This document shows, in pieces, positions 3,945 to 57,099 of a DNA stretch of 64,000 nt; the stretch's first letter is position 1; each line of letters begins with the position of its first letter. A model generated the notes under the pieces. That model worked only from the letters and a program-made list of their open reading frames with translations, made no database searches and was not told the DNA's origin. The translations under genes were made by a program, and so were the position numbers. The stretch is from Anaerolineae bacterium (GTDB lineage Bacteria; Chloroflexota; Anaerolineae; Anaerolineales; Anaerolineaceae). The stretch is from positions 90,141 to 154,140 of the forward strand of contig JABLWW010000006.1 of NCBI GenBank assembly GCA_013178295.1. The letters run 5' to 3'.

Positions 3945-4030
3945 TTTTGTGGCTGGCTGGCAAGACTTTTACAGGAGATAGCCGTCTTAACCTTCTGCGC
4001 TCTGTGAAAGAGGTCTTTGGAGGAGAACAC

Positions 4031-5044: not shown

Positions 5045-5075
5045 ACCACGACAGTTTTTGTGAAAGGGTAGTCAA

Positions 5076-5426: not shown

Positions 5427-5474
5427 CATCTTACCCGGCTGAGAGGGGCCACAGAAAAGATTCCTCAGAGTTCT

Positions 5475-5531
5475 TTAAACGTTTGCGCTCTGACGGAGAT
5501 ATCCTTTTCCTGTCAGAGCGCAAGTGTTTAA
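5475..5531. terminator. Long inverted repeat between convergent operons, likely bidirectional terminator
   Basis: Bases 5483-5494 (TTGCGCTCTGAC) pair perfectly with 5512-5523. The stem continues outward through two G-U pairs into TTAAAC (5475-5480) with GTTTAA (5526-5531), giving about 20 pairs around a 17-base loop. It lies between the PilZ gene stop and the stop of the leftward membrane-protein operon, exactly where a shared terminator is expected. There is no strong T-run on either side, so it may work as a weak intrinsic or factor-assisted terminator, or protect 3' ends. Confidence 0.6.
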
Positions 5532-5571
5532 TTGGCAGATATATATGCTGAAGAAGCAGGAGCGTTTTTGT

Positions 5572-6219: not shown

Positions 6220-6228
6220 TCGTGCTCC

Positions 6229-7149: not shown

Positions 7150-7158
7150 GCTGCCTCC

Positions 7159-8235: not shown

Positions 8236-8278
8236 TTTTTGCTTTCTCCTTGAGAACAATTCGCATCCACACGAGAAA

Positions 8279-9124: not shown

Positions 9125-9136
9125 TGCACCTCCATC

Positions 9137-9835: not shown

Positions 9836-9868
9836 GTTGTTTTGCCTCGTGCTGGGGTTTCTTAATTC

Positions 9869-9874
9869 ATTATA
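9869..9874 (-). promoter_or_regulatory. Probable -10 box for the rhomboid-protease operon
   Basis: On the - strand this is a perfect TATAAT in the 75-base gap between the UbiB-like gene and the rhomboid start. A start site near 9862 would leave a leader of about 27 bases with a good ribosome site. The -35 position at 16-18 bases spacing is not convincing, so an activator or weak promoter is possible. Confidence 0.45.
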
Positions 9875-9910
9875 CTAACTTTGCCCATAAAAAGTTGCAG
9901 GTCTGATTGT

Positions 9911-11575: not shown

Positions 11576-11595
11576 CTCAAGTCAGGGGAGCAGGG

Positions 11596-39335: not shown

Positions 39336-41264
39336 CTACTTCGATACCACGTCCCACTTGTGAGTTGTGCGCTGGCGGCATACTTGATGGTTGTCTTCAA
39401 ACGGAAAATCGTAATCGAGACGATAGACTACAAAATTGTCTTCTTCAAACAAGATGACGGGGTGTACCCAATTGGGGGGTGATATTGATTCTAACTGACT
39501 TTTTTCTGCCAGAATGTATTTGAATCCACTTTCATAAATCTTCTGCCAGTGGAGATCACCCGTATTCAGGTCGGCGAAAGTGCTGAGACTTTCAGCGCAT
39601 TGTAACAAATCGGAACGCAACCAGTAAGAGTGTGGAATACCCATCAAAACGCGCTCGCCTGCTTTGGCATGTTGATTGAGAGACACCTGGGCGCGGCAAG
39701 CCCCGCCATAGAGGTGACACTTTGGGAGTCCCCCGCGCAGGTAAGTCAGTGTTTTTCCCGGAAAGAAAATGGGATGATTTCCCAAGGTCGTGGACGAGAG
39801 CGAAACCGAGACCAGGGTGATTAATGCGCACCCTAAAACTCCTCTGCTGAGCAAACGTGATGTTCCCGAATGTAAGCTGATGTGTTCGGCTGCTCTGGCT
39901 GGCAGCAGTGAAAAGAGCAGAAGGGTTGCCATGAGATAACGCGGTTCGATGTAACCCGGATACAATATGACCCATATCATCATTCCAAGCGCCGCGGCGA
40001 GAGTTACACCGACCAGCGGACTGCTGAACCATGGGCGGGTTTTGGGCAGCAAAAACCCAAGCGGCAAAAAACCAAGGATCAACGGTGAGAGATTACCAAG
40101 CTGAACCCTGTAACGATCATAGCTGCCAAAGGTTAATTCAATGAGGTAGGTCAGGTAAATGCGCTTTGGGATGAAGCCGTCTAGAACTGAAGCGTTCCAT
40201 CCCCAACCGCGTGCATCGCTGCCTGTGGCAAAAGGATTGCCAAGCAGTACTCCATTCTTAACCAAATGAATGGCGATCGCAAGCACTGCCCATAAAGCAA
40301 AGGTGATCAATGTCTTGCCCAAAGGCAGCATCCATGATCGCAAAAAAGGTTTTTCTCTTTCATTATGGCTCATTTGAATGTGTTGCCAGACCAGCAGAAA
40401 GGCAATAGCAGGCAAGAAAGATACGACATAGCTCAATTTGGACACAAGCGCAAACCCGCAGAAAAGACCTGCCAAACGTAGCCCTAGACGGATGTCCTGG
40501 AATACCCAGTAAAGTGCTGCGATGCCCAGCGCCATGGTAAAAAGGTCTGTCTTGCCCTGCATAACCCACAGCACGCATGTGGAGGTATAGATCATTGCCA
40601 GCACCAGCCATTGGGCGCGCCTTCCCAACCCCAGTCTTGCCCCAAGTGCACAGAGCAAAACAGCCCCCGCCAGCCCGGTAATCCAGGCAAACAATTGGGC
40701 AGCATCTGATAACCCCAGTGACATCAGAGCAGCGTAGTGCATTTCTCCCTGAAGCCCAAACGAGTTAACATGCGCCCCCATGAGCGGAAATGTATCCAGA
40801 TAGTGGGATGAAGCAACGATTTTTGGCAAGACCATGTAGTACAGGATGGCATCACCCTGCAGCGGCGCTGCCAGCGTGGTTACACCAGCTAGCGCCAGAT
40901 AAAGGGAAAGCACGGCAATAATTTGCCAGCCGAAAGGCTCGATTTTCAAGTCAGCCCAGAGGTTAGCCAAAGTGCGTACAGACCCTCTCAGATGGCAGAG
41001 AAGTTCCCGCGCCCCGCTGATGAAGCTGATGGTCGTTACACCAATAACAACGCCCGGCGAAAACCACCCTGCTAAAGCGATCAGCACCCAAAGATTTGCC
41101 AGCGCGCCCTGCCCAAGCAGAAAAGCGGTGGCTAGACGAGCTGCTCCCGAATGCTGCAACAGCGCTTTTGATTTGCTGTCTAACAGACGCAGCACAAAGC
41201 TGCCAAGACTTGTGCAGGCAAGGCTGTAAAAAAGGAGAATAGCAAAAATTTTGGCTGCAAGCAT
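39336..41264 (-). CDS. GT-C-like multi-span membrane protein (copy A of a tandem pair)
   Basis: The 642-residue protein has about ten membrane helices. After the fourth helix it contains AAPLQGDAILYYMVLPKIVA, with an acidic pair near a loop that in GT-C enzymes holds the catalytic Asp. A soluble C-terminal tail (about 530-642) contains PSYWLRSDLLQCAESLSTF-like elements and a short aromatic-rich end. It is a clear paralogue of the 657-residue protein at 42240-44213; an unrelated membrane protein lies between them. Probably a membrane glycosyltransferase using lipid-linked sugars. Confidence 0.72.
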   Translation of the reverse strand: MLAAKIFAILLFYSLACTSLGSFVLRLLDSKSKALLQHSGAARLATAFLLGQGALANLWVLIALAGWFSPGVVIGVTTISFISGARELLCHLRGSVRTLANLWADLKIEPFGWQIIAVLSLYLALAGVTTLAAPLQGDAILYYMVLPKIVASSHYLDTFPLMGAHVNSFGLQGEMHYAALMSLGLSDAAQLFAWITGLAGAVLLCALGARLGLGRRAQWLVLAMIYTSTCVLWVMQGKTDLFTMALGIAALYWVFQDIRLGLRLAGLFCGFALVSKLSYVVSFLPAIAFLLVWQHIQMSHNEREKPFLRSWMLPLGKTLITFALWAVLAIAIHLVKNGVLLGNPFATGSDARGWGWNASVLDGFIPKRIYLTYLIELTFGSYDRYRVQLGNLSPLILGFLPLGFLLPKTRPWFSSPLVGVTLAAALGMMIWVILYPGYIEPRYLMATLLLFSLLPARAAEHISLHSGTSRLLSRGVLGCALITLVSVSLSSTTLGNHPIFFPGKTLTYLRGGLPKCHLYGGACRAQVSLNQHAKAGERVLMGIPHSYWLRSDLLQCAESLSTFADLNTGDLHWQKIYESGFKYILAEKSQLESISPPNWVHPVILFEEDNFVVYRLDYDFPFEDNHQVCRQRTTHKWDVVSK

Positions 41265-42239: not shown

Positions 42240-44213
42240 CTACTGGGGGAGATGCAATCGGAAGATGTCCCATGCAGGGGGGCGTACTTGTTCACATGCC
42301 CATTGCGCAGCTGTTGGGGGATCAATATAGTCTAGACGATAAATTTCCATGTACTCCTCGTGGGCAATACGCGTGGTTTGTACCCAGCTGGGGGGCTGAA
42401 GGTTTTCCAAACTGCCAGCTAACCTGTTCTTATCAATGATCAGATAACTAAAACCCTCTTCGAAGATGGCATTCCAGAGCATTTGCACTTTGCCGGTGCT
42501 GTCCTGCGTGATATAAGCCGTCAACGGCTTGTCTGATGCGCATTGCTGCAGGTCTGGTCTAAGCCAGTAAGTTACATCGGTGTCCATTAAAACCCGGCTG
42601 CCCGCTTTGGCTTGCTGATTCAATACGGTGAAAACCTGACAGTGTGCGCCGCCCAGCTCGCACGCATCCAATCCTTTGGTCAGATACTTCCAGGTTCTTT
42701 GGGGGTAGAAACTGGGCAGGCGGTATCCCGCTGCTGTTCCCGATGCAGTTGTGTTGAGGGCGGTTGATATGAGAATAATGACAATGCTTACCATGCCGCC
42801 AATGGTTAGCAGGTGAGGAGGTCTGTCAATTTTGAATGCGTGCTCAATTGCCCGAATGGCGGGCAGCCCGATAAGAAACAATGTTGCCAAAATGTAGCGG
42901 GGCATGATATAGCCCGGAAAGATGATGACATAAAGCAGAGTTCCTATTGCGGCGGATAAAGTCAAGACTAACAACTGGCTCTCATGCCATGTCTTTGGGC
43001 GGGGCAAGAGCACTGTTAGGGGGAGAAAAGCTAGAACCCAAGGGGAGATGTTTCCAAGCTGGTCATAGTAGCGATAATCGCCAAAGGTAACCTCCACCAG
43101 GTATGTCAGATAGAGGCGGGGGGAGTAATAGCCTGTCATTTCCACATGCCATCCCTTTGGGTTGCTGTTGTAAATGAAACTCAAAGGGTTTCCCAACAAT
43201 ACGCCGTTTTTTATCAGATGTGGAATGAGTGCTATGATCATCCAAAAACCGATGATAAAAAGGGATTTTGCCAATGCCTGCATCCCCATCATTATTGCAG
43301 AGCGACTTGCTTTGATGTCGAGCATGTTTCTGTGCTGCCAGATTTCCAAAATGAGCAACCCTGGTAGCAGAGTAAGAAGATAGCTGGTTTTGGCGATTAA
43401 CGTTAACCCAGCGAACAACCCGCATAAACGCAGCTGTAACTTGCCCTTTTGAATCGCCCAATAATATGTGGCAATGCCTAGCGACATGGAAAACAAATCC
43501 GTTTTTCCCTGCGTTACCCAAAGAACAGCTGTTGAGGTAAACACCATCCCCAAAATGAGCCACTGCCCACGCCTGCCGACGCCCACGTGGCTGCCAAGCG
43601 CGCACAGCAGTAGCGCCCCAGCCAGAGCGGTAATCCATGTGAACAGACGCACCGCGTCTGCTAAACCTAATGACATGAGAGCGGCATAGTGCATTTCGCC
43701 CTGCAACCCCAACGGATAATAGATGCTTTTTCCAGGCAATAGCGAGAGACGGTGCGAGGCGGCAATGACTTTTGGCAGCGACATATAGAAATTAACTGCA
43801 TCCCCTTGTAAGCCTGCGCCGAGACAGGTGATTCCCCCCAGCGTCAGATAGCCAATTAGAAAAGCGACGATTTTCCACTCCCAACTATCCAGGATAAGGT
43901 CGCGGGCGATGTTTTCTGTTTGACGCAGCAGCGGACGCAGATAGCCCAAAACAAAAGGAATGCCTGCCAGAAAACAGACAGCCATCACGATGACAACAAC
44001 AGCAGGCGAAAACCAGCCAGCCAGGGCAACCAGAACCCAAAGGTTTGCCAAAATGCCCTGCCCGAGCAAAAAGGCTGTCAGCAGCATTGCCCAAGGCGAG
44101 AGGGAAACCTCGCGCGGGCCTTTGCCTTGCAACAGGCGGAGTATCAATCCGCCAAAGCTGATGCAGGTTAATGTATAAATGCCTATAATGACAAAAATCT
44201 TTATAGCAGGCAT
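42240..44213 (-). CDS. GT-C-like multi-span membrane protein (copy B of a tandem pair)
   Basis: The 657-residue protein shows the same layout as copy A: LAGWFSPAVVVIVMAVCFLAG, GLQGDAVNFYMSLPKVIAAS with an acidic loop residue, ALMSLGLADAVRLFTWITALAGALLLCALG, and an extracytoplasmic C-terminal domain ending SWVQTTRIAHEEYMEIYRLDY. The two copies align from end to end. It lies 3 bases downstream of a GT-B-like gene. Likely a membrane-bound sugar transferase or glycan-modifying enzyme, but the reaction is not established. Confidence 0.72.
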   Translation of the reverse strand: MPAIKIFVIIGIYTLTCISFGGLILRLLQGKGPREVSLSPWAMLLTAFLLGQGILANLWVLVALAGWFSPAVVVIVMAVCFLAGIPFVLGYLRPLLRQTENIARDLILDSWEWKIVAFLIGYLTLGGITCLGAGLQGDAVNFYMSLPKVIAASHRLSLLPGKSIYYPLGLQGEMHYAALMSLGLADAVRLFTWITALAGALLLCALGSHVGVGRRGQWLILGMVFTSTAVLWVTQGKTDLFSMSLGIATYYWAIQKGKLQLRLCGLFAGLTLIAKTSYLLTLLPGLLILEIWQHRNMLDIKASRSAIMMGMQALAKSLFIIGFWMIIALIPHLIKNGVLLGNPLSFIYNSNPKGWHVEMTGYYSPRLYLTYLVEVTFGDYRYYDQLGNISPWVLAFLPLTVLLPRPKTWHESQLLVLTLSAAIGTLLYVIIFPGYIMPRYILATLFLIGLPAIRAIEHAFKIDRPPHLLTIGGMVSIVIILISTALNTTASGTAAGYRLPSFYPQRTWKYLTKGLDACELGGAHCQVFTVLNQQAKAGSRVLMDTDVTYWLRPDLQQCASDKPLTAYITQDSTGKVQMLWNAIFEEGFSYLIIDKNRLAGSLENLQPPSWVQTTRIAHEEYMEIYRLDYIDPPTAAQWACEQVRPPAWDIFRLHLPQ

Positions 44214-44216
44214 CGT

Positions 44217-45692
44217 TTATGTCTTGGGTTGATGGGGTGAATAAGCCCTATATGCTTCTTCGACGATCCAGTTCAGGATGCGTTCTGAAGCGCGCCCGTC
44301 GAATGGCTCAAGCTGTTCCTGCCGCAGCCGCTCGCGCCCAGCGCTGTCTAACGCGGGGTCTTTGAGGTATGCAATGATTGCCTCATCCAGTTCCTGGTAA
44401 CTTTTCACCAGACGCACACCGCCGCTCTTGATGACATTGACATAGTGATCTGTTTCGCAAAAGCGCAGCGAACTGTTGTAGTAATCCGTTTCAAGGTCGC
44501 CGTCAAACCCGATGTTGATCACAGGGGTGTCAAGCGCTGCCGAGTCCAGCGCAATAGAACCGCTGGATGCCAATGTGATGTCAGCATGGGCAAGCAGATT
44601 GGCAAGAAAATCCAGCCGCCCCTTTTCAGCAGGGAGGACGATCACATTCGGGGGATCATGCATCTGGCTGAAACGCGCCTGCCATTCAGCATCCCTGGGG
44701 TGTGGGCGAATGATCAGAGTACAGGGGTATCCATAGGCATCTGTCTGGGAGTTGCGGGAGATGTATTGCATAATGCCTGGTTCGTGCGCTCCCAGCCGCG
44801 AGCTATTGGCAGCAAATAATAGAATTTTATTCTCTGCTGGTATGCCGAGAAATTGCAGAAAGCGCTCTCTGGGTTGAATAATGCCCGGTTTTTTGTATAT
44901 ATCCATTTGCGGCCAGCCTGCCACCTCGATTTTGCTTTCGGGAACGTTGTGGTAGGTAATCAGTTCGCGGCGCATGATGGGTGTCTGCACGATATAGCGC
45001 ACAATCCCGGGGCAAAGCGGACCCTTTGTGGTAGCCTGATCCCAGCTTCCGATCATGCCGAGAATGGGGATACCGCGCTTTGTTGCAGCGACCACATAGG
45101 GCTTGATGGTCGGGTTCTGCACGTGAGAAATAACGACCAGGTGAGGGCGAAACTGTTCAAAAAAGGCTTCCACCTGGGGGCTGTTGCGTTGCCAGGTGGA
45201 ATAATAAAAGCGATACAGCAGCCACAACAGCCGCTCGCTGTCTGGAAAGGGTTGCCCAAGATGGCTGTCCACATAGTTGCCAGCCTGCGCTTCGCGTGTT
45301 TTGCGGGCTGGTGGTAGATGCACCAGAAACTGATGTGTGGCAAATCGATGAATATGGTTGAAGCGAAATACCAGATTGCCAAACCCGGCCTGTCTGCTGA
45401 AGAGGCAATTGAGGAAGCCATATCCAAATTGCCGCAGTTTCTCTTTGAAAGACAACAAGGGTGGCTGTAAGGTGGCATTCTCTAAGGGCTGGTGAACGTG
45501 CGCCCACTTCAGGTTGCTGGCGCCCAGTTCAAGGATGTGCTGCTGATCCTCTTTGAATATGGAGAGAACGGCAATATTCAGCGCGTCCTGCCTGGCAAGC
45601 AGTTCAATCAGCGGCGTCTCCATGCAGTTGCGCCAAGCCATCATGTTGGGCAACACCAGCACAACACGGGGTGCGTCGGTCAATTGGATCAA
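44217..45692 (-). CDS. GT-B-fold transferase-like protein (CDP-glycerol/lipid-carrier type, tentative)
   Basis: The 491-residue protein has an N-terminal domain (VVLVLPNMMAWRNCMETPLIELL) and a C-terminal GT-B half: KILLFAANSSRLGAHEPG, CTLIIRPHPRDAEW, and a donor-site pattern ADITLASSGSIALDSAALDTPVINIGFDGDLE, like glycerophosphotransferases and UDP-GlcNAc 2-epimerase relatives. The start is TTG 45692, overlapping the 2-epimerase stop (TTGA). It therefore appears to be translated with the nonulosonic acid genes and may use or transfer a related sugar. The exact transferred group is unknown. Confidence 0.72.
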   Translation of the reverse strand: MIQLTDAPRVVLVLPNMMAWRNCMETPLIELLARQDALNIAVLSIFKEDQQHILELGASNLKWAHVHQPLENATLQPPLLSFKEKLRQFGYGFLNCLFSRQAGFGNLVFRFNHIHRFATHQFLVHLPPARKTREAQAGNYVDSHLGQPFPDSERLLWLLYRFYYSTWQRNSPQVEAFFEQFRPHLVVISHVQNPTIKPYVVAATKRGIPILGMIGSWDQATTKGPLCPGIVRYIVQTPIMRRELITYHNVPESKIEVAGWPQMDIYKKPGIIQPRERFLQFLGIPAENKILLFAANSSRLGAHEPGIMQYISRNSQTDAYGYPCTLIIRPHPRDAEWQARFSQMHDPPNVIVLPAEKGRLDFLANLLAHADITLASSGSIALDSAALDTPVINIGFDGDLETDYYNSSLRFCETDHYVNVIKSGGVRLVKSYQELDEAIIAYLKDPALDSAGRERLRQEQLEPFDGRASERILNWIVEEAYRAYSPHQPKT

Positions 45693-46864
45693 TAGGTCAT
45701 TCTTTTCTGGATATTTGGCTGAATTGTGGAGAGGATATTGGCAATGCGTTCTCCCGCGTGACCATCTCCATAAATTGGGTCAGAAGGATAGCGCCCGTTT
45801 TTGAGCTGCTTTTTCACAGCGTCACAGATTTCCTCTTGGTTGTAGCTGACGTTAATGACGTTTTTGCCTTGCTCCCGCCCAGCCTGGCGCGTGCCGATAT
45901 TGACCGCTGGGGTGCCCATAAAGGCGCCTTCTCGGATTGCCGAGCTGGAGTTGCCTATCATGCAGGCACAGCGATTGATCAAGCGCATAAATGTTTCTGG
46001 AGGAAAGTTTTTGTAGAAGCGTATGTTCTCATGCGCATAGCGTTCGCGGAATTTTCGTATTCCACGGGCGACATCCTCTGATCCAGCATCAGCGTTGGGC
46101 CATAGCATGATTGTAGGCATATCCAGTTGGCGTAGTGCCATGAGAGTTTCGTTGATTTGGAATTCCCCTTGCCCATACTCGGTTGTGACAGGATACTGGG
46201 CTACCAACAAGAAAGGCTCATCCAGATCAATTTGGCCGCCCACCCCCTGATATTCCAGCCAGGCGCGTTCTGGGAGTTCTTTTCCTGCGTCAACGATTTC
46301 TGCCACCAGGTCAATGCGCGGGCAGCCGACCACGAATACACTCTGAGGGTCTTCCCCCATACGGATGATGCGCTCTGCGGATCCTTTATTGGCTGGAAAA
46401 TGAATATGTGCCAGTTTAGTCACGGCGTGGCGCACACTTTCGTCTATCGTGCCGGTTACCTCACCGCCCATCGTGTGGGCGAGTGGAATGTTCATATAGG
46501 CAGCCGAGATGGCAGTGGCGATGGTTTCAAACCGGTCACCGACGGTCAGCACAATATCAGGTTTGAGATTGTCAAAAATGTTTGGCAGTTCAAGCAGCCC
46601 CAAACCGGTAGACTTTGCCATCGTTACCGGTGTCTCGCCTTCGATGATCATGTGCACTTTGGCAAGAGGTTTAAAACCGTCTGTCTCAATGATGTCCACT
46701 ACGGAGCCATACCGATCGAGCAGTGCAGAGGCGCCAACCACAAGCTGCAATTCCAGTGCAGGGTGCTTCTGGATTGCCCGCATGACGCTTTTGATGCTGC
46801 TATAGTTGGCACGCGAGCCAACCACAATACAAATCTTGCGTTTTGGATGTTGTTGATATTGCAT
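45689..46864 (-). CDS. neuC: UDP-N-acetylglucosamine 2-epimerase, hydrolysing (NeuC/LegG-type)
   Basis: The 391-residue GT-B-fold enzyme makes ManNAc (or a diacetyl analogue) from a UDP-sugar, the first committed step to nonulosonic acids. It has VVGSRANYSSIKSVMRAI at the N-terminus, VGDRFETIA (108-116), HTMGGEVTGTIDESVRHAVTKLAHIHF (130-156) with the Asp141/Glu142 and His146 residues of the family, and IGNSSSAIREG. ATG 46864 is chosen since the longer frame overlaps the amidotransferase gene. The NeuB-type and CMP-sugar synthetase genes lie upstream, so the pathway is nearly complete. NeuC versus LegG cannot be decided. Confidence 0.87.
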   Translation of the reverse strand: MQYQQHPKRKICIVVGSRANYSSIKSVMRAIQKHPALELQLVVGASALLDRYGSVVDIIETDGFKPLAKVHMIIEGETPVTMAKSTGLGLLELPNIFDNLKPDIVLTVGDRFETIATAISAAYMNIPLAHTMGGEVTGTIDESVRHAVTKLAHIHFPANKGSAERIIRMGEDPQSVFVVGCPRIDLVAEIVDAGKELPERAWLEYQGVGGQIDLDEPFLLVAQYPVTTEYGQGEFQINETLMALRQLDMPTIMLWPNADAGSEDVARGIRKFRERYAHENIRFYKNFPPETFMRLINRCACMIGNSSSAIREGAFMGTPAVNIGTRQAGREQGKNVINVSYNQEEICDAVKKQLKNGRYPSDPIYGDGHAGERIANILSTIQPNIQKRMTY

Positions 46865-46880
46865 AGGGTTTGAGAAAGAT

Positions 46881-48734
46881 TTATTTTTGGTCAATGAATG
46901 TTTTTGCCCAGATTTCAAGATTAATCCACTGCCAGAGGAAAAAAGAGTTATCTCCTTCCCCATTAAAAAATGCCTGCATGGCACTCAGACCAGCTTTGCG
47001 TTCTACCCAGCCGCGCTCCCAGAAGCTTTTTGTGTCAATTTGTTCACGTACCCAGTCTCTTAGCTGATTGCGAAACCACTCTCTTTGAGGGGTCTGCACT
47101 TGACGTTTAGCAGCTGTACGAACGACATCGGGCAGCAGCCGCCTGGTTGCGCGCCGCAGGATAGCTTTCGTTATGCCATTTTCGATGTAGTCTTCGGGGG
47201 GGAGCGAAAACTCGTATGCCAGAAGACGGTGGTCAAGGAATGGCGGGCGCAATTCACAACTTGCCGCCATGCTGAGCCGATCGCGGAAACGCAATGCGCG
47301 CGGCAATTTGGTATAGCGCAATTCCCGGTACATGAGGTTACGCAAATGATCGGGGAATGGGCGTTCAAAAACTGGCAGGGGGTGCGCCGCGGTGGCGATA
47401 AAGTCGGGGTTCAGGCAGTCCGGGCGGACGCTGCTGGTGAGGTCTTGTCCCTTACCGACATCAAATTGGGGTTGGGAAGCTTCGTATATTTGAGATAAGG
47501 CTTTGCGACGCGCTTCAGGAGTGGAGATGTGGCAGGCAGATAGTTCCCTCTCAAGCACTTGCATTTGCCCATTTTCAAACAGGTCTGCCCAGCGCGCTAC
47601 TCGAAAGCGATCATACCCTGCCAGCCCTTCGTCCAGCCCGCTGCCATCCATGATGACAATAAACCCATGCTGACGCGCCAGTTGAAAGCAGAGCGTGTAG
47701 GCAGAAATGGGAAGACCGGCAAAAGGTTCCTCCTGGCTTTCACAGAAGGCTATTGCACACTCAGCAAATACCGCAGGGGTGATCTCAACAAAGTGTGCCG
47801 GGCGGCCTGTTTGGCGTGCCATTTCTTCTACAAACGGGCGCTCGCTATATTGTGGGTCATCAAATGAGAACGAAAAGGCTTCGACTCGGGCTGGGTCAGG
47901 GTGGATTTTGTCCAACAGGCTGAGGAGAACAGAAGAGTCCAGCCCACCGCTTAGTGCCACTCCAACCGGTACATCACTGCGCAGATGTAAGTCAACAGCC
48001 TCTTTGCACATATCGAGAAGTTTTTCTTCGCGTTTTTGGGGTTCTGCATCAACTGGCTGCTGTGCTGCTTTCACACCCAGATCCCAGTAGCGTACAGGCG
48101 GTTTGAGTTTTCCTGCCTGGACCAGCATCCAATGACCGGGAGGCAATTTGTAAACGCCTTTAAAGAAGGTCTCGTCGCTGTGCTCGTAGAAGTCTCGCGC
48201 CAAAAAGTCGTATATGACCCGTTGATTGACCTGAGGGATGACCCCTGCAGCGAACAATGCACGTATCTCAGAAGCAAAGACGAAATTTTCGCCCAAATGT
48301 GTGTAATAGAATGGCTTGATGCCCAAATTGTCGCGGGCGCAGAACAACGTCTGTTCTACTGCATCCCAGATGGCAAAGGCAAACATACCCACAAAATGTT
48401 CGACGCAATGCGTGCCCCAGTGGGCATAGGCTTGTAAAATGACCTCTGTATCCGTTTGTGAGCGGTAGGGCATTTGCGGCAATTCCTGGCGTAGTTCGCG
48501 ATAGTTATACACTTCTCCGTTGTGAATAATGATATAGCGTCCGTCGAGGGTGCTCATTGGCTGGCTACCGGCAGGACTGAGGTCAATAATGCTCAGGCGG
48601 CGGTGTCCCAGACAGACATTTGGCGCTGACCATGTGCCCTCACCGTCTGGACCGCGGTGTTTCATGGCGTTTGTCATCCGTTGCACAATTTCAATGCTTG
48701 CTGAAGGTCCGACCACTCCGGCTATCCCGCACAT
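46881..48734 (-). CDS. asnB: Asparagine-synthase-like glutamine amidotransferase (second copy)
   Basis: The 617-residue enzyme keeps Cys2 (MCGIAG), HRGPDGEG (26-33), HNGEVYNYREL, and SGGLDSS at 262-268, so glutaminase and AMP-forming halves look active. In its ATPase domain MDGSGLDEGLAGYDR replaces the common GGDGGDELFAGY. It is inserted between NeuB-type synthase and 2-epimerase genes, so it most likely amidates a sugar acid or nonulosonic acid, as AsnB-like WbpS/WbpG-type enzymes do in other glycan loci. It is far from identical to the copy at 30534. Confidence 0.85.
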   Translation of the reverse strand: MCGIAGVVGPSASIEIVQRMTNAMKHRGPDGEGTWSAPNVCLGHRRLSIIDLSPAGSQPMSTLDGRYIIIHNGEVYNYRELRQELPQMPYRSQTDTEVILQAYAHWGTHCVEHFVGMFAFAIWDAVEQTLFCARDNLGIKPFYYTHLGENFVFASEIRALFAAGVIPQVNQRVIYDFLARDFYEHSDETFFKGVYKLPPGHWMLVQAGKLKPPVRYWDLGVKAAQQPVDAEPQKREEKLLDMCKEAVDLHLRSDVPVGVALSGGLDSSVLLSLLDKIHPDPARVEAFSFSFDDPQYSERPFVEEMARQTGRPAHFVEITPAVFAECAIAFCESQEEPFAGLPISAYTLCFQLARQHGFIVIMDGSGLDEGLAGYDRFRVARWADLFENGQMQVLERELSACHISTPEARRKALSQIYEASQPQFDVGKGQDLTSSVRPDCLNPDFIATAAHPLPVFERPFPDHLRNLMYRELRYTKLPRALRFRDRLSMAASCELRPPFLDHRLLAYEFSLPPEDYIENGITKAILRRATRRLLPDVVRTAAKRQVQTPQREWFRNQLRDWVREQIDTKSFWERGWVERKAGLSAMQAFFNGEGDNSFFLWQWINLEIWAKTFIDQK

Positions 48735-48744
48735 GTAGCTTCTC

Positions 48745-49740
48745 CTACATCAGGTCTTCGGGTTTAATAAGGGTGTCACGGGGGATATGATGTCTGGCTT
48801 TTCTGCCGATAACCTTCTGGTATTCCCTTGCTGGAATACCTGTCCCCGGCTTTTTGAACCCAATCATTGTCTCCGTGATCATTGTTTTGGCGGGAATATC
48901 GCAGGTGGATACAACGCTTTTTTCAAAAACCTTTTTCATCTCGCTGAAGCGGCTGACGTTGTCTTTGTCCACCGGGCTGTTGAGCATGATTTCTACTGCC
49001 CGAATGCCCTCTACAAGGGCAGCAAATTCATGCGGCTCAAGGGAGTGGGGCGCGTCGCTGCCATACATGCGGCGGCTGAATGTGAGATGTTTTTCGATCA
49101 CCTCTGCGCCTAATGCTACCGCAGCCAGCGAAGCATAGGGCGTGAGTGTATGGTCCGAGAGACCTACAGGCAGATGGTAGCGTTCTCTCATCTCCAGCAT
49201 GACGTTGAGCCCAACTTCCTCATAAGGACAAGGATACTCGCTGGTGCACTGTAAGATGGTCAGCTGGTTGTGAACCCGCTGAATGGTATTGACTGCCTCG
49301 TCCAGTTCTGCCCAGGAGCTCATTCCAGAGGAAAGCAACACGGGTTTACGCGTTTGCGCCACCATTTCTAGGAGGGGAATATTGCTCACCTCTCCGCTTG
49401 GGATTTTGTAGCGAGCTACACCGATTTCTTCAAGAAGCGCAACAGCCTGGAGAGAAAATGGCGAAGAAAGAAACTCAACAGAATGCGAATCGCAGTGCGC
49501 TTTTAGCGTCTTCCACTGCTCAATACTGAACGCAGTACGTTCAAAGTATTCATATCTCGGTTCGCCCTTGAAGTAAGGCGGCATGGGCGCGTGACGCAAG
49601 GTTTCAGCAGCGGCAATGTGGGTCTGGAATTTGACCACATCCGCGCCGCACCCGGCAGCAGTTTCGATTAACTTTTGGGCATTACCAAAGCTGCCATCGT
49701 GTACTGAGCCAACCTCAGCAATAATCATGATCTTGTTCAT
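48745..49740 (-). CDS. neuB: N-acetylneuraminate/legionaminate-type synthase (NeuB family)
   Basis: The 331-residue enzyme condenses a 2-acetamido sugar with phosphoenolpyruvate to a nine-carbon acid. Residues about 1-255 form the TIM barrel: IAEVGSVHDGSFGNAQKLI, DVVKFQTH, FEFLSSPFS-like strand, LLSSGMSSWAELD, LQCTSEYPCPYEEVGLNVM, GLSDHT (193-198), and VIEKHLTF. Residues about 275-331 are the C-terminal SAF (antifreeze-like) domain with FKKPGTGIPAREYQKVIGRKA. It is 2 bases downstream of the cytidylyltransferase gene. Which nonulosonic acid is formed depends on the upstream sugar. Confidence 0.9.
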   Translation of the reverse strand: MNKIMIIAEVGSVHDGSFGNAQKLIETAAGCGADVVKFQTHIAAAETLRHAPMPPYFKGEPRYEYFERTAFSIEQWKTLKAHCDSHSVEFLSSPFSLQAVALLEEIGVARYKIPSGEVSNIPLLEMVAQTRKPVLLSSGMSSWAELDEAVNTIQRVHNQLTILQCTSEYPCPYEEVGLNVMLEMRERYHLPVGLSDHTLTPYASLAAVALGAEVIEKHLTFSRRMYGSDAPHSLEPHEFAALVEGIRAVEIMLNSPVDKDNVSRFSEMKKVFEKSVVSTCDIPAKTMITETMIGFKKPGTGIPAREYQKVIGRKARHHIPRDTLIKPEDLM

Positions 49741-49742
49741 GT

Positions 49743-50477
49743 CTATCTCTTTTGCGCTTTCTCGTCTGCCAGAATTTGCTGCAGTCTGGCTTCGCCCGTC
49801 GCCCAGTCCTCTGGACGGTCGAGATCAAGAGCGTACTTGGGTTCGGCGATATGCGCTACGACTCTTTGACCATAAAGCGTTGGAGGCGTTTGCAACAAAA
49901 GATGCGCCTTACAGGCAAAAATCAGCCCGTTGGTTGCATAAAACGTGTCCTTCAAATCCTGTCTGCGGTGGATCATGTTTGCCGGGTGCGTTCCGTCTAT
50001 TCCCAGCAGGGTAGCATCCGGTTGAAGACAGAGAATTTTGCGGGGATGATAATGGTGCGGCACCTCGCTTACGCTCAAGACGGTATCACAATCTCCTTTT
50101 TGTAACAATTCAGCTGCCTGGCGGATGTGAAACGGGCGGCGGGTGGGCGAGGTGGGTTCGAGCACCATAACGAAATCGGGCAGCCAGTTTTCATGCTCTT
50201 GCAGATATTCCAACAGATGGGTGAGCACCGGCGGGGTGGGGGTACTATCCTGCGCCAGCTCCGCCGGGCGCAGAAAAGGCACCTCCGCGCCATAGTGTTT
50301 GCCGACTTGGGCGATTTCTTCGTCATCCGTGCTCAGAATGAGACGATCGAGAGCGCCGCTTTGCAGGGCGGTCTCCGCTGTCCAGGCGAGCAGGGGCTTG
50401 CCAAGAAATGGCTTAATGTTTTTGCGGGGGATGCTCTTCGACCCGCCGCGCGCAGGGATCACACCCAGAATGCTCAT
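49743..50477 (-). CDS. neuA: CMP-nonulosonic acid synthetase (acylneuraminate cytidylyltransferase, NeuA/LegF-type)
   Basis: The 244-residue enzyme activates the nonulosonic acid with CTP. The N-terminus has the classic signature VIPARGGSKSIPRKNIKPFLGKPLL (R10, G11-S13-K14, P17, K19-N20), then STDDEEIAQVGKHYGAEVPFLRP and VLEPTSPTRRPFHIRQA. All are standard for acylneuraminate/CMP-Kdo-type cytidylyltransferases; the R-G-G-S-K-S-I-P-R-K-N form is that of the sialic-like group. A truncated copy of this kind of gene occurs at 56988-57089. Confidence 0.9.
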   Translation of the reverse strand: MSILGVIPARGGSKSIPRKNIKPFLGKPLLAWTAETALQSGALDRLILSTDDEEIAQVGKHYGAEVPFLRPAELAQDSTPTPPVLTHLLEYLQEHENWLPDFVMVLEPTSPTRRPFHIRQAAELLQKGDCDTVLSVSEVPHHYHPRKILCLQPDATLLGIDGTHPANMIHRRQDLKDTFYATNGLIFACKAHLLLQTPPTLYGQRVVAHIAEPKYALDLDRPEDWATGEARLQQILADEKAQKR

Positions 50478-50495
50478 TCGAGAATGGTCTTTAGT

Positions 50496-52091
50496 TTATC
50501 TTCCAGCTTTTAATTTCTGATAAAGACGCTTGAGCGGACGCAGATGTTTTCGGATTCCCCAGTACAGCGATGAGAGGGTTTGTCTGATAATTTGCGCTCC
50601 CCGCTGTGCTTTTTGATATGCCGGGCTATACAACTGAAGGTACTGGCGTACCTTGATGGACGCCTGACGATATTGCTGCCGAAAGATGGGTTTGAACAGC
50701 TTTCCCTCGCGCACAAGTGTTTGCAGATAATCTACTTCCATCTTCATGTGCACCCAGTAAAACAGGCGGATCATTTCCTCGTCGCTTTGCCCCGAGACGT
50801 TGAGGACAATGTTGGGGATGAGATAGTTGTTATAGCCCTGGTGCAGTTTTAGGATGTAAGCCTCTTCATCCGCAATTTTTCCTGCTGTTCTTGCCTGTTC
50901 ATATAGCTCAGACCCTGGCAGGGGTGTTGTCCACGTCAGGCGGCGCGGCGGCAGTTTGGCTTCACGTATCAGGCTGGCGGTTTCAGCCAGCGTTGCCTTT
51001 GTTTCACCTGGATAACCGCCCATAAATTGCAGCTTGAGATGTATTCCCACCTCGCGTGCCATTTTGAGCACCGACAGACTCTGTTCACGGGTGATGCCCT
51101 TTTTCATAGCTTTGAGCATGGCATTGCTGCCCGATTCAATTCCCAGCCCAATGGAAAGACAGTTGGCATCTTTCAACGCATACAGAATTTCTTTATCGTT
51201 GATGGTGTTGACGCGCGCCTGCCCATCCCAGTAGATATCCAATTTCTTCATCTCATGGCAGAATTCCAGCGTGCGTTTTTTGTTGAGGATGAGCAATTCG
51301 TCAACGAATTGAATGGATTTAAGATCAAAGCGCTCTTTGAGATAGCGAATATCTTCAATGATTTTGCCGATGCTCTTAAGCCGCACACCGCTGTAGCTGC
51401 GTGAGCAAAAACGGCACTTATAAGGGCATCCTCGTCCTGCCAGGTAACTGATATTGGGACGCAGGTGATCCAGGTCAACACTGTCGAGGTCTTCGTAAGC
51501 CTCGGCACGCGTGCTTTCGTCGTGCACATACATCTTAACCTGGGTATAGGCGTGCATATCCCATAGATCGAAGTCGGGCATTGGCAGGCTGTCGAGGTTG
51601 TCAATCAACTCGCGGATCTCGTTCACCACAATCTGCCCATTGCGGCGATAGGCAATCCCCCTGACCGCTTCTGGGCGGTTCAGGTTGCGAAACAGATCAA
51701 CACCGGTCAGTTCGCCTTCGCCGATCGCGCAGATATCAATATGACCTTTGTTGAGCAGCAGGTCATAGTGATTATCTGCTACCAGACCGCCGACAATAAC
51801 CGGCACAGCGTAACGTTTTTTGACCTGCTGCGCCAGCCACACCACATAAAGGTAATTCATGGATGAGAACCCGCTGATACAGGCAGCGTCAAATTTCTCG
51901 CGGTCGAGAAACGCCTCGACTTCGGGGTTGATCATGTCTGCGCCATGCACATCGAGCACAGAAATCTCATGCCCGTCGTTTTGAAGATATTGAATGACCG
52001 AAGCCAGCCCCCACGGGAACAGGCGTTGTTTGGTCGGGCGGCGGGTGCTGCCGTCACCCTGACCGGGGGGTTGGATAAAAAGGAGCTTCAT
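50496..52091 (-). CDS. B12-binding radical SAM enzyme
   Basis: The 532-residue protein has an N-terminal cobalamin-binding domain (about 1-150, VISVLDVHG and VIVGGLVADNHYDLLL) and a radical SAM core with the 4Fe-4S motif GRGCPYKCRFCS (Cys222, Cys226, Cys229, spacing x3-x2). After it, GLGIESGSNAMLKAMKKGIT matches the core domain. The C-terminal 150 residues are helical. ATG 52091 is used; the longer frame lies inside the neighbour. In glycan loci such enzymes often add methyl groups to unactivated carbons or rearrange sugars, so a branched or C-methylated sugar is possible. Reaction unknown. Confidence 0.85.
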   Translation of the reverse strand: MKLLFIQPPGQGDGSTRRPTKQRLFPWGLASVIQYLQNDGHEISVLDVHGADMINPEVEAFLDREKFDAACISGFSSMNYLYVVWLAQQVKKRYAVPVIVGGLVADNHYDLLLNKGHIDICAIGEGELTGVDLFRNLNRPEAVRGIAYRRNGQIVVNEIRELIDNLDSLPMPDFDLWDMHAYTQVKMYVHDESTRAEAYEDLDSVDLDHLRPNISYLAGRGCPYKCRFCSRSYSGVRLKSIGKIIEDIRYLKERFDLKSIQFVDELLILNKKRTLEFCHEMKKLDIYWDGQARVNTINDKEILYALKDANCLSIGLGIESGSNAMLKAMKKGITREQSLSVLKMAREVGIHLKLQFMGGYPGETKATLAETASLIREAKLPPRRLTWTTPLPGSELYEQARTAGKIADEEAYILKLHQGYNNYLIPNIVLNVSGQSDEEMIRLFYWVHMKMEVDYLQTLVREGKLFKPIFRQQYRQASIKVRQYLQLYSPAYQKAQRGAQIIRQTLSSLYWGIRKHLRPLKRLYQKLKAGR

Positions 52092-52098
52092 CTTTTGG

Positions 52099-53565
52099 TC
52101 AGTTGTTCCTGTTTTTGCCAGCAGGCTCTGGTTTTGAGGTTTCAATCAGCCGATAGAGTTCATTGACCACGCGTTCGGTACACTTGCCGTCCAGCAGAAT
52201 CCAGTCGGTGACCTCCTGACGTTGTTTTTCAACTACCCGACTATAATAGTCCGTATCATTTATTAATTTTTCTAGTGTTGGCTTAAGTTCACCGTGGGCA
52301 CGAATAGTGATGACACAAGGGGAGCTTTCGTAAAAATCTTGATATTGATCCAAATAGCCCAACAAAATAGTAGGCTTGGCTAAGCCTATTGCTACCAATA
52401 TTGTGCTTGACTTATCTGCCACAAAAATATCGCAGATTGTAAGCAGTTTATAGTATGGTTCGTTTCCTATCGTCGCACCATATTTTTGGGCTAATGGCTC
52501 ATAATTGGATGGGTTGCTTATTGGATGCAGACTAAGGATAACAGATGTGTTTGGAACATGAGATAAGGTAGATAATAAAAAATCAATTTCTTTCCAGTGC
52601 CTCTCCCATGACAGTAACCCATGCTCACCGCGGTGGGGAACGGATAGTAAGACTACCCGTTTCCTTTGTTCTTTATCTGATATTGAGGTAGGGCTAAATG
52701 ATTTATTAACTGTCAATAATTCGTATAACGCGTCCCAAGATGGTTTTCCAGTGATGAGCATCTTTTCAGGGCTAATACCTTGTTCCAAAAATTGTCGATA
52801 AACAACAGGGCTTTCGACCGCCATGCGAGTTGCTTTTCCTCCCCCAATTGTCCATGGGTTTTTGGGCATTGTTCCGGTTAGCCAGCCCGCCAAAGAGGTA
52901 TGCGCTTGATAGAAAAGAAGACGTTCCCCATTATACTCATAAACCCAGCGAGGAAATATTATGGATGTTATCCAATTTAAAAAGGAGGATCTCACGAATC
53001 GGTCTCTATATCCACTGGTGTGTCTCAACCGCACTGCTGCAATTGGTGTGCTATACGCATAAGGAATGATAAGGCTGGGAATACCACGAAGATTTGCTGC
53101 TTTAATAAACGCGGTTTCCCAGCCCAAATGACGATCGCCAATTAAAACAAGCCCAGCAACATTATCGTTGTCAAGCATTCTCTTAGCTTCATTTACTTGT
53201 AGAGATTGCAATTTTATTGCACTTAAAAATTTTACTACCACACGGGGAATCAAAGGTTGTGTGAGGTGATAAACAAAGCTAATAAGTGAATTCCAGATGG
53301 ACAATTTTCTCGATGCAAAGCCTGTCTCTAAATGGGTAACTGTATAAACCTCTTTTTTGGGGGTGGGAGGGAAAACAATCTGATATCCCTCTTGTTCTAA
53401 AGCCTGGAGTTTTTCCAACCTGAATTTTTCTATTTTGGCTGGAAGAAAAACAGGTTCATACTTCCTTTCTCCTCGCAAACGCCGAGCGACAGGTAGCATC
53501 TCAGGAATCATTGCATCAGATAAGGGTATAAAAACAACTTTTGGTTTGCTGCTTTGATGATCCAT
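52099..53565 (-). CDS. GT-B-like transferase (tentative), in AT-rich segment
   Basis: The 488-residue protein has a GT-B-like architecture: VVFIPLSDAMIPEMLPVARRLRG at the start, LLSVPHRGEHGLLSWERHW, VILSLHPISNPSNYEPL and a donor-site-like stretch ICDIFVADKSSTILVAIGLAKPTILLG. This resembles glycerophosphotransferase/2-epimerase-like folds, as does the 44217 gene, but no exact family is recognised. Coding sequence from about 52250 rightward is much more AT-rich than the last ~150 bases, suggesting a junction within the gene's 3' end. Its ATG directly follows the neighbouring stop (TAAATG). Confidence 0.65.
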   Translation of the reverse strand: MDHQSSKPKVVFIPLSDAMIPEMLPVARRLRGERKYEPVFLPAKIEKFRLEKLQALEQEGYQIVFPPTPKKEVYTVTHLETGFASRKLSIWNSLISFVYHLTQPLIPRVVVKFLSAIKLQSLQVNEAKRMLDNDNVAGLVLIGDRHLGWETAFIKAANLRGIPSLIIPYAYSTPIAAVRLRHTSGYRDRFVRSSFLNWITSIIFPRWVYEYNGERLLFYQAHTSLAGWLTGTMPKNPWTIGGGKATRMAVESPVVYRQFLEQGISPEKMLITGKPSWDALYELLTVNKSFSPTSISDKEQRKRVVLLSVPHRGEHGLLSWERHWKEIDFLLSTLSHVPNTSVILSLHPISNPSNYEPLAQKYGATIGNEPYYKLLTICDIFVADKSSTILVAIGLAKPTILLGYLDQYQDFYESSPCVITIRAHGELKPTLEKLINDTDYYSRVVEKQRQEVTDWILLDGKCTERVVNELYRLIETSKPEPAGKNRNN

Positions 53566-55149
53566 TTATTCGGATAATAGCGGGAGCAGTATTTTTCTTA
53601 AGCCAAATTTCACCTTTCGCTTTAATTTACCTATAAATGAAAGAGTATCAGAAGGATACTCGGGTCGAGAGATTATTGTATCAATTCCCAAGTTTGGAAA
53701 TGCAAAATGGAATGTTTTGATGAAACGGTCAAACTTAACAGTTTTAGCCCCTTTTTCAAGGTCAGGGGCGAATTGGGGCAAGATCTCGATCGCTTGCTTG
53801 AAAAATAACTCTGCCCTCTCTTGGCCGTTTTGTTCGTCAGCTAAAATTCCAAGACCTACAAGAGCTTTGACTTTTGCATAACCCTCCAAACCGGATTGCA
53901 GAGCGTTTTCAAAATCAATTTTTGCTTGTAAGTCGTTTTTAACCAGCATATTGAGTATGCCAGAAATGTAATAGACGATGGGTTGCCACTCGCTTTCTGT
54001 TGTTAGCTTTGCTATCATATCAAGGGCGCTTTGTGGTGTCGTGGCATTTAGGGTTTCGAACAATTTCATTAGAAAATTTAGCTCACGATCGCAGATATCT
54101 GATCTAATCAGTCTGTCACAAAACGACAAAATATTTTTATCTACTCCCATAAAGATTAGCATTGAGAGCAGTTGTGTAATCGGATCAAAGGCTGGATAAA
54201 ACTTAGCATCATCATGCTTTGGTGTCATGACAATTTCATAATGCTGCTTACGGTGAAAGAACTCTGGGAAAGGAACGGGAAGAGGGCCCCACTTCTTGAC
54301 GTCAAACATCTCTATCGGATAATCCCCAGGTTTTTGCGGGCCCGCTGCACCATGATGGTTAAAGAAATAAAACAACCCGTTGTCAGCCAAGTGATTTTGA
54401 ATGTATTTAAAATATCGGTTTACCTCTGAGAGAGTCATTTCCTGAAACGAAATAGTATTGATTACCAGCGAAAATCGCCGGTCAATGACCTCTAACCCCT
54501 TTGGTGTGGCAAAAACCAGTGAACGCCGAGGTATCTCTTGCGGTGGCTCGTTGTTGACAAAGATCAGTGAAAAATCAGGGTGATTAACAGAAAGATAAAA
54601 TGCACCGAGGAATAAGTTTTGAGGCAAGTCGCATATAATATAGGCATCGGGTTGGAGATTCTGTATCAATATCTCTGCTACACCGCCGTAGCCAGCGCCG
54701 ATTTCGAGTATAGTATGGCAGGCGGGTCTTGCCTGCTGATATTCAAGCAGAGCTTGTTCTATACGATATGCTATCGTGGCATTATATAGCCCAGCCCCGC
54801 TAGATAATATACCCTCTCTATAGTATTGGTATGGCAAACCAATACTGCTTTCCTGGTTGCTTTGCAAATAGCTTAACGGTGCAATTGCCGTTGCGCGATG
54901 ATAATTTGAGATGAAGCTGACATGTTCGTTAATCTCGTTAACATTTGGTTTAAACCCAATATAACTTGCCATCCCTTCTCTTCTGAAGGCTAAAATTTCG
55001 TTATAGCTGGGAAAATTATGACGCGAATTGAGCAATTTTTTCCAAAAATCGGATGAGAAATCCTCCGCTAAGTCATTTTCCTCGATCAGTCTTTCAAAGA
55101 ACGGTTTGATTTCCTGATATTTTTGATAGAGGAGCAAATTTTCATTCAT
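53566..55149 (-). CDS. Putative sugar O-methyltransferase (NanM-like) with C-terminal helical repeat region
   Basis: The 527-residue protein has a methyltransferase core in its middle third: TILEIGAGYGGVAEILI (147-163, motif I), IICDLPQNLFLGAFYLS, and INTISFQEMTLSEVNRYFKYI. This resembles the 'putative sugar O-methyltransferase' group that includes sialic acid O-methyltransferase-type proteins. The C-terminal ~150 residues (ALQSGLEGYAKVKALVGLGILADEQNGQERAELFF) look like TPR-type helical repeats. It overlaps the upstream membrane-protein stop (ATGA) and is in AT-rich sequence. A role in capping a sialic-like glycan is attractive but unproven. Confidence 0.72.
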   Translation of the reverse strand: MNENLLLYQKYQEIKPFFERLIEENDLAEDFSSDFWKKLLNSRHNFPSYNEILAFRREGMASYIGFKPNVNEINEHVSFISNYHRATAIAPLSYLQSNQESSIGLPYQYYREGILSSGAGLYNATIAYRIEQALLEYQQARPACHTILEIGAGYGGVAEILIQNLQPDAYIICDLPQNLFLGAFYLSVNHPDFSLIFVNNEPPQEIPRRSLVFATPKGLEVIDRRFSLVINTISFQEMTLSEVNRYFKYIQNHLADNGLFYFFNHHGAAGPQKPGDYPIEMFDVKKWGPLPVPFPEFFHRKQHYEIVMTPKHDDAKFYPAFDPITQLLSMLIFMGVDKNILSFCDRLIRSDICDRELNFLMKLFETLNATTPQSALDMIAKLTTESEWQPIVYYISGILNMLVKNDLQAKIDFENALQSGLEGYAKVKALVGLGILADEQNGQERAELFFKQAIEILPQFAPDLEKGAKTVKFDRFIKTFHFAFPNLGIDTIISRPEYPSDTLSFIGKLKRKVKFGLRKILLPLLSE

Positions 55150-56891: not shown

Positions 56892-56987
56892 AAGCTTTAA
56901 GATCTGTGTTTGAAAAATGAAAATAGGTGGAGGATAAGCTCTATAGACAAAAGTCAGGCCGCGTTTTAGGATTTTTCAAGATTTAGC

Positions 56988-57089
56988 CTAAAGAGGTACA
57001 TTTGCAGCCTGTTCTAATGTGACAAAATGCTTATCTGGGCAATTTGTATTTGACCCGCCGCGGGCAGTGATAAGACCTAAAGCATTCAT
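56988..57089 (-). pseudogene. Remnant of a CMP-nonulosonic acid synthetase gene (5' fragment)
   Basis: A 33-codon frame opens at ATG 57089, 10 bases after the wzt stop, and reads MNALGLITARGGS before losing similarity and ending at TAG. The first 13 residues match the start of NeuA-type enzymes (here MSILGVIPARGGS at 50477), and the nucleotides also align with that gene's 5' end. After base ~57051 the frame is unrelated AT-rich sequence. It is best read as the start of a synthetase gene cut off when the cassette to its left was inserted. A tiny functional peptide is unlikely. Confidence 0.7.
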
Positions 57090-57099
57090 CACAGCCTGC

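Follow-up and report, generated by a model that had tools for sequence, protein, structure and literature searches.

The stretch of DNA analysed here, hereafter the window, comprises 64,000 nucleotides from an Anaerolineae bacterium (bases 90141-154140 of contig C18, JABLWW010000006.1, in genome G000, GCA_013178295.1) and contains a long leftward polysaccharide locus, at the start of which the ABC exporter Wzm/Wzt is encoded. Within this locus, the region 44217-52091 was found from the list of open reading frames (ORFs) and from family scans to carry the genes for NeuC, an AsnB-type amidotransferase, NeuB, a NeuA-type enzyme and a B12-binding radical S-adenosylmethionine (SAM) protein, all on the minus strand (Table 1). 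In the order of transcription the genes are GT_B, radical SAM, NeuA type, NeuB, AsnB, NeuC and GT_A, GT_A and GT_B being two glycosyltransferase-like genes. The likely start of NeuC is the ATG at 46864, which leaves no overlap with AsnB, and the likely start of the radical SAM gene is the ATG at 52091. With these refined starts the gaps between the genes are 2 to 18 bases and NeuC overlaps GT_A by 4 bases, a close spacing like that of one operon. A sequence-only reading of this DNA had described a coupled leftward run of NeuC, NeuB and NeuA, with AsnB between synthase and epimerase and a B12-radical SAM gene upstream. All of these genes were found there on the minus strand, with family hits and intact motifs; AsnB is flanked by NeuB and NeuC, and the ATG at 52091 coincides with the end given for the run. 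GT_A, GT_B and the export genes are additions to its gene list. Based on sequence comparison, we lean towards the interpretation that this set makes, tailors and attaches a Neu5Ac-like nonulosonic acid, and that AsnB amidates C1 of the sugar to give a neutral sialic acid.

Table 1 Features of the polysaccharide locus (positions within the window)
Feature	Position	Strand	Basis
GT_A, GT-B-fold glycosyltransferase, candidate nonulosonic-acid transferase	44217..45692	-	PF04464 31.6 bits; NF046086 47.5 bits
NeuC, hydrolysing UDP-GlcNAc 2-epimerase	45689..46864 (ORF listed to 46984)	-	TIGR03568 402.7 bits
AsnB-type glutamine-dependent amidotransferase, nonulosonic-acid-linked clade	46881..48734	-	PF13537, PF00733, TIGR01536
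NeuB, nonulosonic-acid synthase, Neu5Ac-synthase-like	48745..49740	-	PF03102; TIGR03569 under cut-off
NeuA-type CMP-nonulosonate cytidylyltransferase	49743..50477	-	PF02348; TIGR03584 under cut-off
B12-binding radical SAM protein, accessory	50496..52091 (ORF listed to 52145)	-	PF04055, PF02310
GT_B, second glycosyltransferase-like gene	52099..53565	-	PF04464 23.1 bits (cut-off 22.1)
Putative sugar O-methyltransferase, NanM family	53566..55149	-	TIGR04371 78.4 bits, cut-off 44
Wzt, ABC exporter ATPase subunit	57100-58602, ATPase domain from residue 134	-	PF00005, PF14524
Wzm, ABC exporter subunit	58362-59237	-	Wzt/Wzm evidence includes NF050109 56.3 bits, under cut-off

The AsnB-type protein has both the glutaminase and the synthetase domain and reached 411 bits with TIGR01536 (cut-off 267.1), a family that matched all 12 aligned members of the clade described below at E<=0.001. 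Its motifs MCGI (glutaminase Cys2) and SGGLDSS (PP-loop) are intact, which favours ammonia as the donor. The scores for narrower families stayed below their cut-offs: 237 against 499 bits for PRK09431 (asparagine synthase B proper), 381 against 816.9 for TIGR03108 (XrtA/PEP-CTERM amidotransferase) and 316 against 570.1 for TIGR03104 (N-acetylglutaminylglutamine amidotransferase). The stretch ETYDVTTIR of E. coli AsnB, which presumably helps to bind aspartate, is aligned with EEPFAGLPI in the window protein. The structure model (pLDDT 88) was closest to the PDB folds of TsnB9 (7ylz) and E. coli AsnB (1ct9). TsnB9, a hydroxyamidotransferase that we take to act in trichostatin biosynthesis, is the nearest solved structure by sequence and by fold, but its identity in the fold alignment is 26%. 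The own genome has five AsnB matches at the threshold used. A second AsnB-like amidotransferase of the window, of the XrtA/EPS type (30534-32426; TIGR03108 600 bits, below the cut-off), adjoins a methyltransferase gene with a Trm112-like domain, and a further AsnB-like gene is located just right of the window (C18, 154289-156172).

A quick tree of 117 AsnB-like rows placed the window protein in an 11-row clade (SH-aLRT 100) together with those of genomes G270 and G181, an Acidobacteria metagenome-assembled genome (MAG), Herpetosiphon, Algoriphagus, a Bacteroidetes MAG, three Flavobacterium and, as the deepest branch, a Harrisonbacteria MAG. The clade was set by sequence alone, except for a 12th member from a Roseivirga MAG (locus L049, GTG start), which was added afterwards by alignment and motif. 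It thus spans Chloroflexota, Acidobacteriota, Bacteroidota and the Harrisonbacteria MAG, and its cultured carriers include Flavobacterium resistens DSM 19382, F. fluvii DSM 19978, F. stagni and Algoriphagus algorifonticola. Certain residues, for example R470, K476, R479, P342 and A541, are each shared by all 11 clade rows and occur in no more than 8% of the 105 others; the row L119_10409, a spurious antisense frame with a very long branch, was dropped from this comparison. The motif QTPQREW is present in 10 of the 11 tree members and in L049 (11 of the 12 found), is missing in the Harrisonbacteria member, and occurs in none of the remaining rows among 118 AsnB rows (a truncated version of the window protein is counted among the 118). 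When 390 genomes of the phylum, a sample to which G270 and G181 do not belong, were searched with a DNA pattern for QTPQREW, it was found in the own genome only, which points to rarity. AsnB matches at E<=1e-80 were obtained in 52 of 396 genomes of the class (own included), with at most three candidates scored per genome and 30 of the 58 listed matches fetched; the best match besides the own gene was that of G270 (65% identity), and the other 56 listed rows had 32-44%. A profile of the 12 members gave at least 828 bits for three clade members in six genomes and at most 521 bits for all other matches, the three being also part of the profile. By these sequence comparisons, the window AsnB is a member of a dedicated clade and not a stray housekeeping gene.

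The gene company of the clade was compared in 80 named loci, the best of 590 confirmed (593 matched) in a scan of named genomes; one of the two search patterns, Y[ED]H[ST][ED]ETF, favours the AsnB clade, and the clade is not fully counted. NeuB and NeuA were each present in 8 of the 9 clade loci and in 2 of the 71 others, and NeuC in 7 of 9 against none of 71 (Fisher p ~1e-8 for each; thresholds 100 bits for NeuB, 90 for NeuA and 150 for NeuC; 63 of the 71 non-clade loci were at least 9 kb long). The two non-clade loci having NeuB and NeuA were L085 and L114. A NeuA- or NeuB-type gene was found in the locus of all 12 clade AsnB genes. The genes usually run NeuB-NeuC-NeuA-AsnB, and NeuA immediately precedes AsnB in 9 of 12 loci; NeuA and AsnB are separated by a methyltransferase gene in L049 and by NeuB in the window. 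Of the loci with missing genes, L042 is a contig of 3972 bases with NeuA alone beside AsnB, and L045, from the Harrisonbacteria MAG, has a different cytidylyltransferase and no NeuC, together with a NeuB/PseI-type synthase. The L045 cluster (360-13217) encodes an aminotransferase, the synthase, the KdsB-like cytidylyltransferase, three Gfo/Idh-like oxidoreductases and the AsnB of the clade, as well as a B12 radical SAM protein, a PseH-like acetyltransferase and a BFO_1060-like transferase. Genome G270 initially seemed to be without NeuB, but a NeuB search found the gene on another contig: NeuB (72% identity) and NeuC (65%) are on C1, while NeuA (43%) and AsnB (65%) are on C5, so that all four genes are retained, unlinked across two contigs.

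A similar grouping was seen for NeuB. In a tree of 45 rows (44 of them different), the NeuBs of the genomes with clade AsnB formed one clade of 12 rows (ultrafast bootstrap 100, SH-aLRT 100), with the Harrisonbacteria NeuB outside it. By inspection of the two trees, the NeuB groups resemble those of AsnB, namely the window with G270 (and G144), G181 with Herpetosiphon (and G061), and the Bacteroidota; the Bacteroidetes MAG (L046) has no settled position in the AsnB tree. The NeuBs of Bacteroidota were sampled through AsnB, and only the class sample is free of this bias. In this sample, a clade NeuB (at least 46% identity) was found in 5 of 298 genomes, and 3 of the 5 have the clade AsnB (p = 2.3e-6, with the own genome included and on the assumption, based on the E<=1e-80 search of 396 genomes described above, that the clade AsnB is absent from the rest of the sample). 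The remaining two, G144 and G061, have the clade NeuB without the clade AsnB. None of the 12 clade AsnB genes was seen in a locus lacking both NeuA- and NeuB-type genes. This is the asymmetry expected of an optional sugar modification, and the genomes G144 and G061 suggest that the product of NeuB and NeuC can be used without AsnB. On this comparison, AsnB looks like an optional tailoring enzyme.

The identity of the sugar was judged from the three core enzymes. NeuC exceeded the TIGR03568 cut-off of 235.9 bits, and its best PDB match was human GNE (4zht, 276 bits), followed by the bacterial UDP-diNAcBac epimerase 5zlr (199 bits). NeuB belongs to PF03102 (266 bits) with its motifs KFQTH, YKI, SGE, GLSDHT and EKHLT intact, and was closest to the Neu5Ac synthase SiaC of N. 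meningitidis (180 bits, against 146 bits for pseudaminic acid synthase). The NeuA-type protein belongs to PF02348 (75 bits), with NeuA 9ftb as its best PDB match (132 bits). A LegB-like dehydratase (TIGR04180, cut-off 475) was not found in the own genome, where the best score was 165 bits, nor in G181 (178 bits). The likeness of NeuC to GNE and the lack of a LegB-like hit in the own genome make Neu5Ac or a close relative the probable sugar. In the own genome, PseB (497 bits, cut-off 407.75) is absent from the AsnB locus and lies on contig C2 beside another NeuB, in a separate pseudaminic-type locus. Legionaminic and pseudaminic acid as the likeliest products were rejected on the basis of the LegB scores, the location of PseB and the GNE-like NeuC. 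The C2 region (119215-140491; L035, L036) carries PseB and two more NeuB-family genes about 18 kb apart, and several relatives of the family and order also have NeuB genes in pairs, with about 8 to 20 kb of a single contig between them.

From these genes we infer a pathway in which NeuC would convert UDP-GlcNAc to ManNAc, NeuB would condense ManNAc with phosphoenolpyruvate and NeuA would make the CMP sugar, as expected from the likeness to the NeuABC pathway (N. meningitidis SiaC, human GNE epimerase domain). The window set differs from that pathway by its AsnB-type tailoring enzyme and by glycosyltransferases unlike the named sialyltransferases in the scans made. AsnB would hydrolyse glutamine, activate the C1 carboxylate, the only carboxylate of the sugar, as an adenylate and convert it to a primary carboxamide, acting on either the free sugar or the CMP sugar. 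GT_A, GT_B or both, as GT-B enzymes, would then attach the uncharged sialic acid to the polysaccharide, which would be exported by Wzm/Wzt. A C1 carboxamide is rated the most likely amidation because the acetamidino route has its own genes elsewhere and because AsnB-type genes accompany sugar carboxamides. An example is the Bordetella b-Cool locus, which has a putative asparagine synthase, BB0880, and yields a GalNAcA amide (PMC12407052, excerpt). The glycan of the Tannerella forsythia locus also contains a ManNAc uronamide (PMC6120980, excerpt). BB0880 and Tanf_01265 resemble the window gene in lying beside polysaccharide genes of uronamide-containing glycans (excerpts of PMC12407052 and PMC6120980); judged by locus only, they differ in that the window clade tracks NeuB and NeuC, and the scanned ORFs of the window include no nucleotide-sugar dehydrogenase. 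More tentatively, the NeuB-NeuC-NeuA-AsnB cassette seen across phyla, which a cognate GT-B transferase frequently accompanies, may in general make C1-amidated nonulosonamides before or at the CMP-sugar stage.

Several observations weigh against a C1-amidated Neu5Ac. A literature search, mostly by title, gave no C1 carboxamide of a nonulosonic acid as a natural product. NeuA and sialyltransferases usually recognise the carboxylate, which leaves the stage of amidation uncertain. Genome G144 has the nearest relative of the window NeuB (75%; NeuC 79%) without the clade AsnB, and both G144 and G061 carry another AsnB type on the same contig. The window NeuB, with 369 bits, is below the TIGR03569 equivalog cut-off of 399.65, and the best NCBIfam match of the NeuA type is PseF (TIGR03584, 166 bits), also below its cut-off of 205.7. 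Of the five genomes of the class sample that have a clade NeuB, three (G061, G144 and G270) also have a LegB-like gene (356-432 bits, all below 475), in G061 on the same contig as the clade NeuB, and this NeuB lineage may also serve legionaminic-type sugars. Together with two genes of the own genome, a dehydratase of PF02719 (651-aa frame on C12) and, within the window, an aminotransferase resembling LegC (17407-18516; 345 bits, cut-off 420), these genes make a legionaminic-type sugar possible. Passages from four papers (PMC9905251, PMC7371886, PMC8053191, PMC3855419) mention no AsnB with nonulosonic-acid genes and no natural C1 amide, and the AsnB of T. forsythia has been proposed for the acetamidino group of pseudaminic acid (Pse) (PMC6120980, excerpt).

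The last proposal leads to the question of whether the window AsnB makes an acetamidino group, by activating the N-acetyl carbonyl of the nonulosonic acid and transferring ammonia to it as PseA/WbuX-type enzymes do. PP-loop enzymes are presumably able to form amidines. Acetamidino nonulosonic acids are known, and the Tannerella authors give their own AsnB such a role (PMC6120980, excerpt). However, this chemistry has a separate set of the WbuX/HisH/HisF type, which, like AsnB, is thought to bring nitrogen to nonulosonic acids, but consists of three genes of other families. It is complete, as WbuX, HisH and WbuZ, in a Pse cluster of genome G211, and HisH and HisF homologues accompany NeuB in an O-antigen cluster of Legionella (PMC3694923, excerpt). 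WbuX is apart from AsnB in both genomes where this was compared: in G270 it is about 1.2 kb from PseB on C3, a contig other than that of AsnB, and in the own genome it is on C16 (with a weak 25-bit match on C9) and not on C18. The sugar precedent found for an AsnB-type gene is a carboxamide (PMC12407052, excerpt). An exopolysaccharide cluster of Sphingomonas lists an 'amidotransferase, exosortase associated' apart from WbuX, HisF2 and HisH (PMC11340318, excerpt); we read this amidotransferase as AsnB-type, and the excerpt does not state that the cluster makes nonulosonic acids. An acetamidino product of the window AsnB is therefore considered quite improbable. Of the amidated nonulosonic acid in the sequence-only reading, the amidation gained support from comparative genomics (AsnB clade, NeuB clade and cross-phylum gene company), while the acetamidino wording became less likely.

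It would also be possible that AsnB amidates another sugar acid of the same polysaccharide, or forms an amide with an amine, and is a mere neighbour of the nonulosonic-acid genes. AsnB-like genes are indeed common in such loci (105 non-clade rows), and the window itself has a second one, with another just to its right. On the other hand, NeuB is rare in the non-clade AsnB loci (2 of 71), the main groups of the AsnB tree return in that of NeuB, and Pfam scans of 40 window ORFs gave no nucleotide-sugar dehydrogenase; we regard this explanation as unlikely. That AsnB is a plain asparagine synthetase located here by chance agrees with its TIGR01536 score, but is hardly credible in view of the low PRK09431 score, the replacement of the ETYDVTTIR stretch, the separate clade and the linked gene context. 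A housekeeping role was accordingly rejected from the family cut-offs, the tree and the context. 

The candidate transferases were compared in the same loci. With NF046086 (BFO_1060 family, cut-off 200), GT_A reached 47.5 bits and GT_B 27.3 bits, so neither qualifies for the family; a literature search on BFO_1060 found nothing, and hence no link of that family to the Tannerella Pse transferase GtfS. The AlphaFold model of GT_A (pLDDT 73, residues 67-153 poor) matched GT-B-type folds, with UDP-GlcNAc 2-epimerases first, and gave no indication of the donor sugar. A GT_A profile matched 11 ORFs: seven in clade loci (window, L040, L045, L047, L048, L049, L051), two beside the clade NeuB in the genomes without clade AsnB (G144, G061), one more on the G061 contig and one, weakly, in the G211 Pse cluster. 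Seven of these 11 were seeds of the profile, and the new finds are L048, L051, L158 and L161. None of the 71 non-clade AsnB loci had a match, and the profile hit neither GT_B nor any ORF in the G270 stretches (L038/L039), L042, L043, L044 or L046; of these, L042 and L043 extend no more than 0.4 kb, and L044 no more than 1.6 kb, beyond AsnB. This distribution suggests that GT_A goes with NeuB and NeuC rather than with AsnB, and GT_A is a candidate for the cognate nonulosonic-acid transferase.

The radical SAM protein has an N-terminal B12-binding domain (PF02310) and a CxxxCxxC motif, CPYKCRFC, in its radical SAM domain (PF04055). Among the best 25 of 26 matches no curated family was above its cut-off, the best being HpnJ with 138 against 577.6 bits. 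The best PDB match was 6fd2, apramycin oxidoreductase 4, which we take to be AprD4, a diol dehydratase and not a methylase. The gene is outside the conserved core: only L045 among the nine named clade loci has a homologue, and a search of 297 further genomes of the class, with up to four candidates scored in each, gave no relative at E<=1e-55. A distant homologue adjoins a nonulosonic-acid synthase in G211 (27%), and another lies close to such a synthase in the Harrisonbacteria MAG (24%), a hint of a recurring but separate role. The two domains and these homologues could be taken to mean that the protein is a core member that C-methylates the sugar. In view of the clade-locus content and the class search, by which core membership was rejected, and of the PDB and family matches, we think this improbable; C-methylation, which had been put forward as a possibility for the sugar, was not supported beyond being one option among others. 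The Pse cluster of G211 (contig C259, 3644-17934; L161) comprises a Pse-associated methylase, PseG, WbuX, HisH, WbuZ and a FemAB-like protein, with a B12 radical SAM gene directly before NeuB and a BFO_1060-like transferase.

Between 52 and 58 kb the G+C content is 40-44%, compared with about 52% around this stretch. The low segment (52000-58000) spans GT_B, the NanM-type methyltransferase, a membrane protein (55146-56891, 37% G+C) and part of Wzt, and is likely imported DNA. The locus can therefore be regarded as a mosaic, with a boundary near the upstream end of the nonulosonic-acid set. Downstream of the set, two large membrane proteins of 642 and 657 aa (39336-41264 and 42240-44213) without Pfam or NCBIfam match each have about nine hydrophobic segments at similar places, with N-termini alike by eye; as a guess, they are perhaps paralogous GT-C-like enzymes. 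A 980-aa protein at 12756-15698 fuses GT2, GT4 and methyltransferase domains.

The pathway and the enzyme superfamily are already known, and the dedicated cross-phylum combination is rated as new. The only earlier proposal linking AsnB to nonulosonic acids that was found, by the title-based search, is that for Tannerella, with an acetamidino product (PMC6120980, excerpt). The statement of the sequence-only reading that such a sugar is little described in Chloroflexota holds in part: no title on nonulosonic acids in Chloroflexota was among those listed, but NeuB genes are common in the order, with two to four matches in 19 of the 20 genomes listed from the own family and order (own included).

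The AsnB clade with QTPQREW provides a sharp genomic marker, with named cultured strains as carriers. If the product were acetamidino after all, the clade would still mark a dedicated nitrogen-transfer enzyme for nonulosonic acids. Sialic-acid-binding proteins, sialidases and chemical surveys usually need the negative charge at C1. If the C1 carboxamide is formed, the loss of this charge could explain why such sugars escape notice, and from chemical reasoning, alpha-keto acid derivatisation after acid release would tend to miss a nonulosonamide or to show its deamidated form. The surface sugar would then retain the sialic shape without the charge, and a charge-removing tailoring enzyme in several phyla would open a new dimension in the way sialic acids vary among environmental bacteria.

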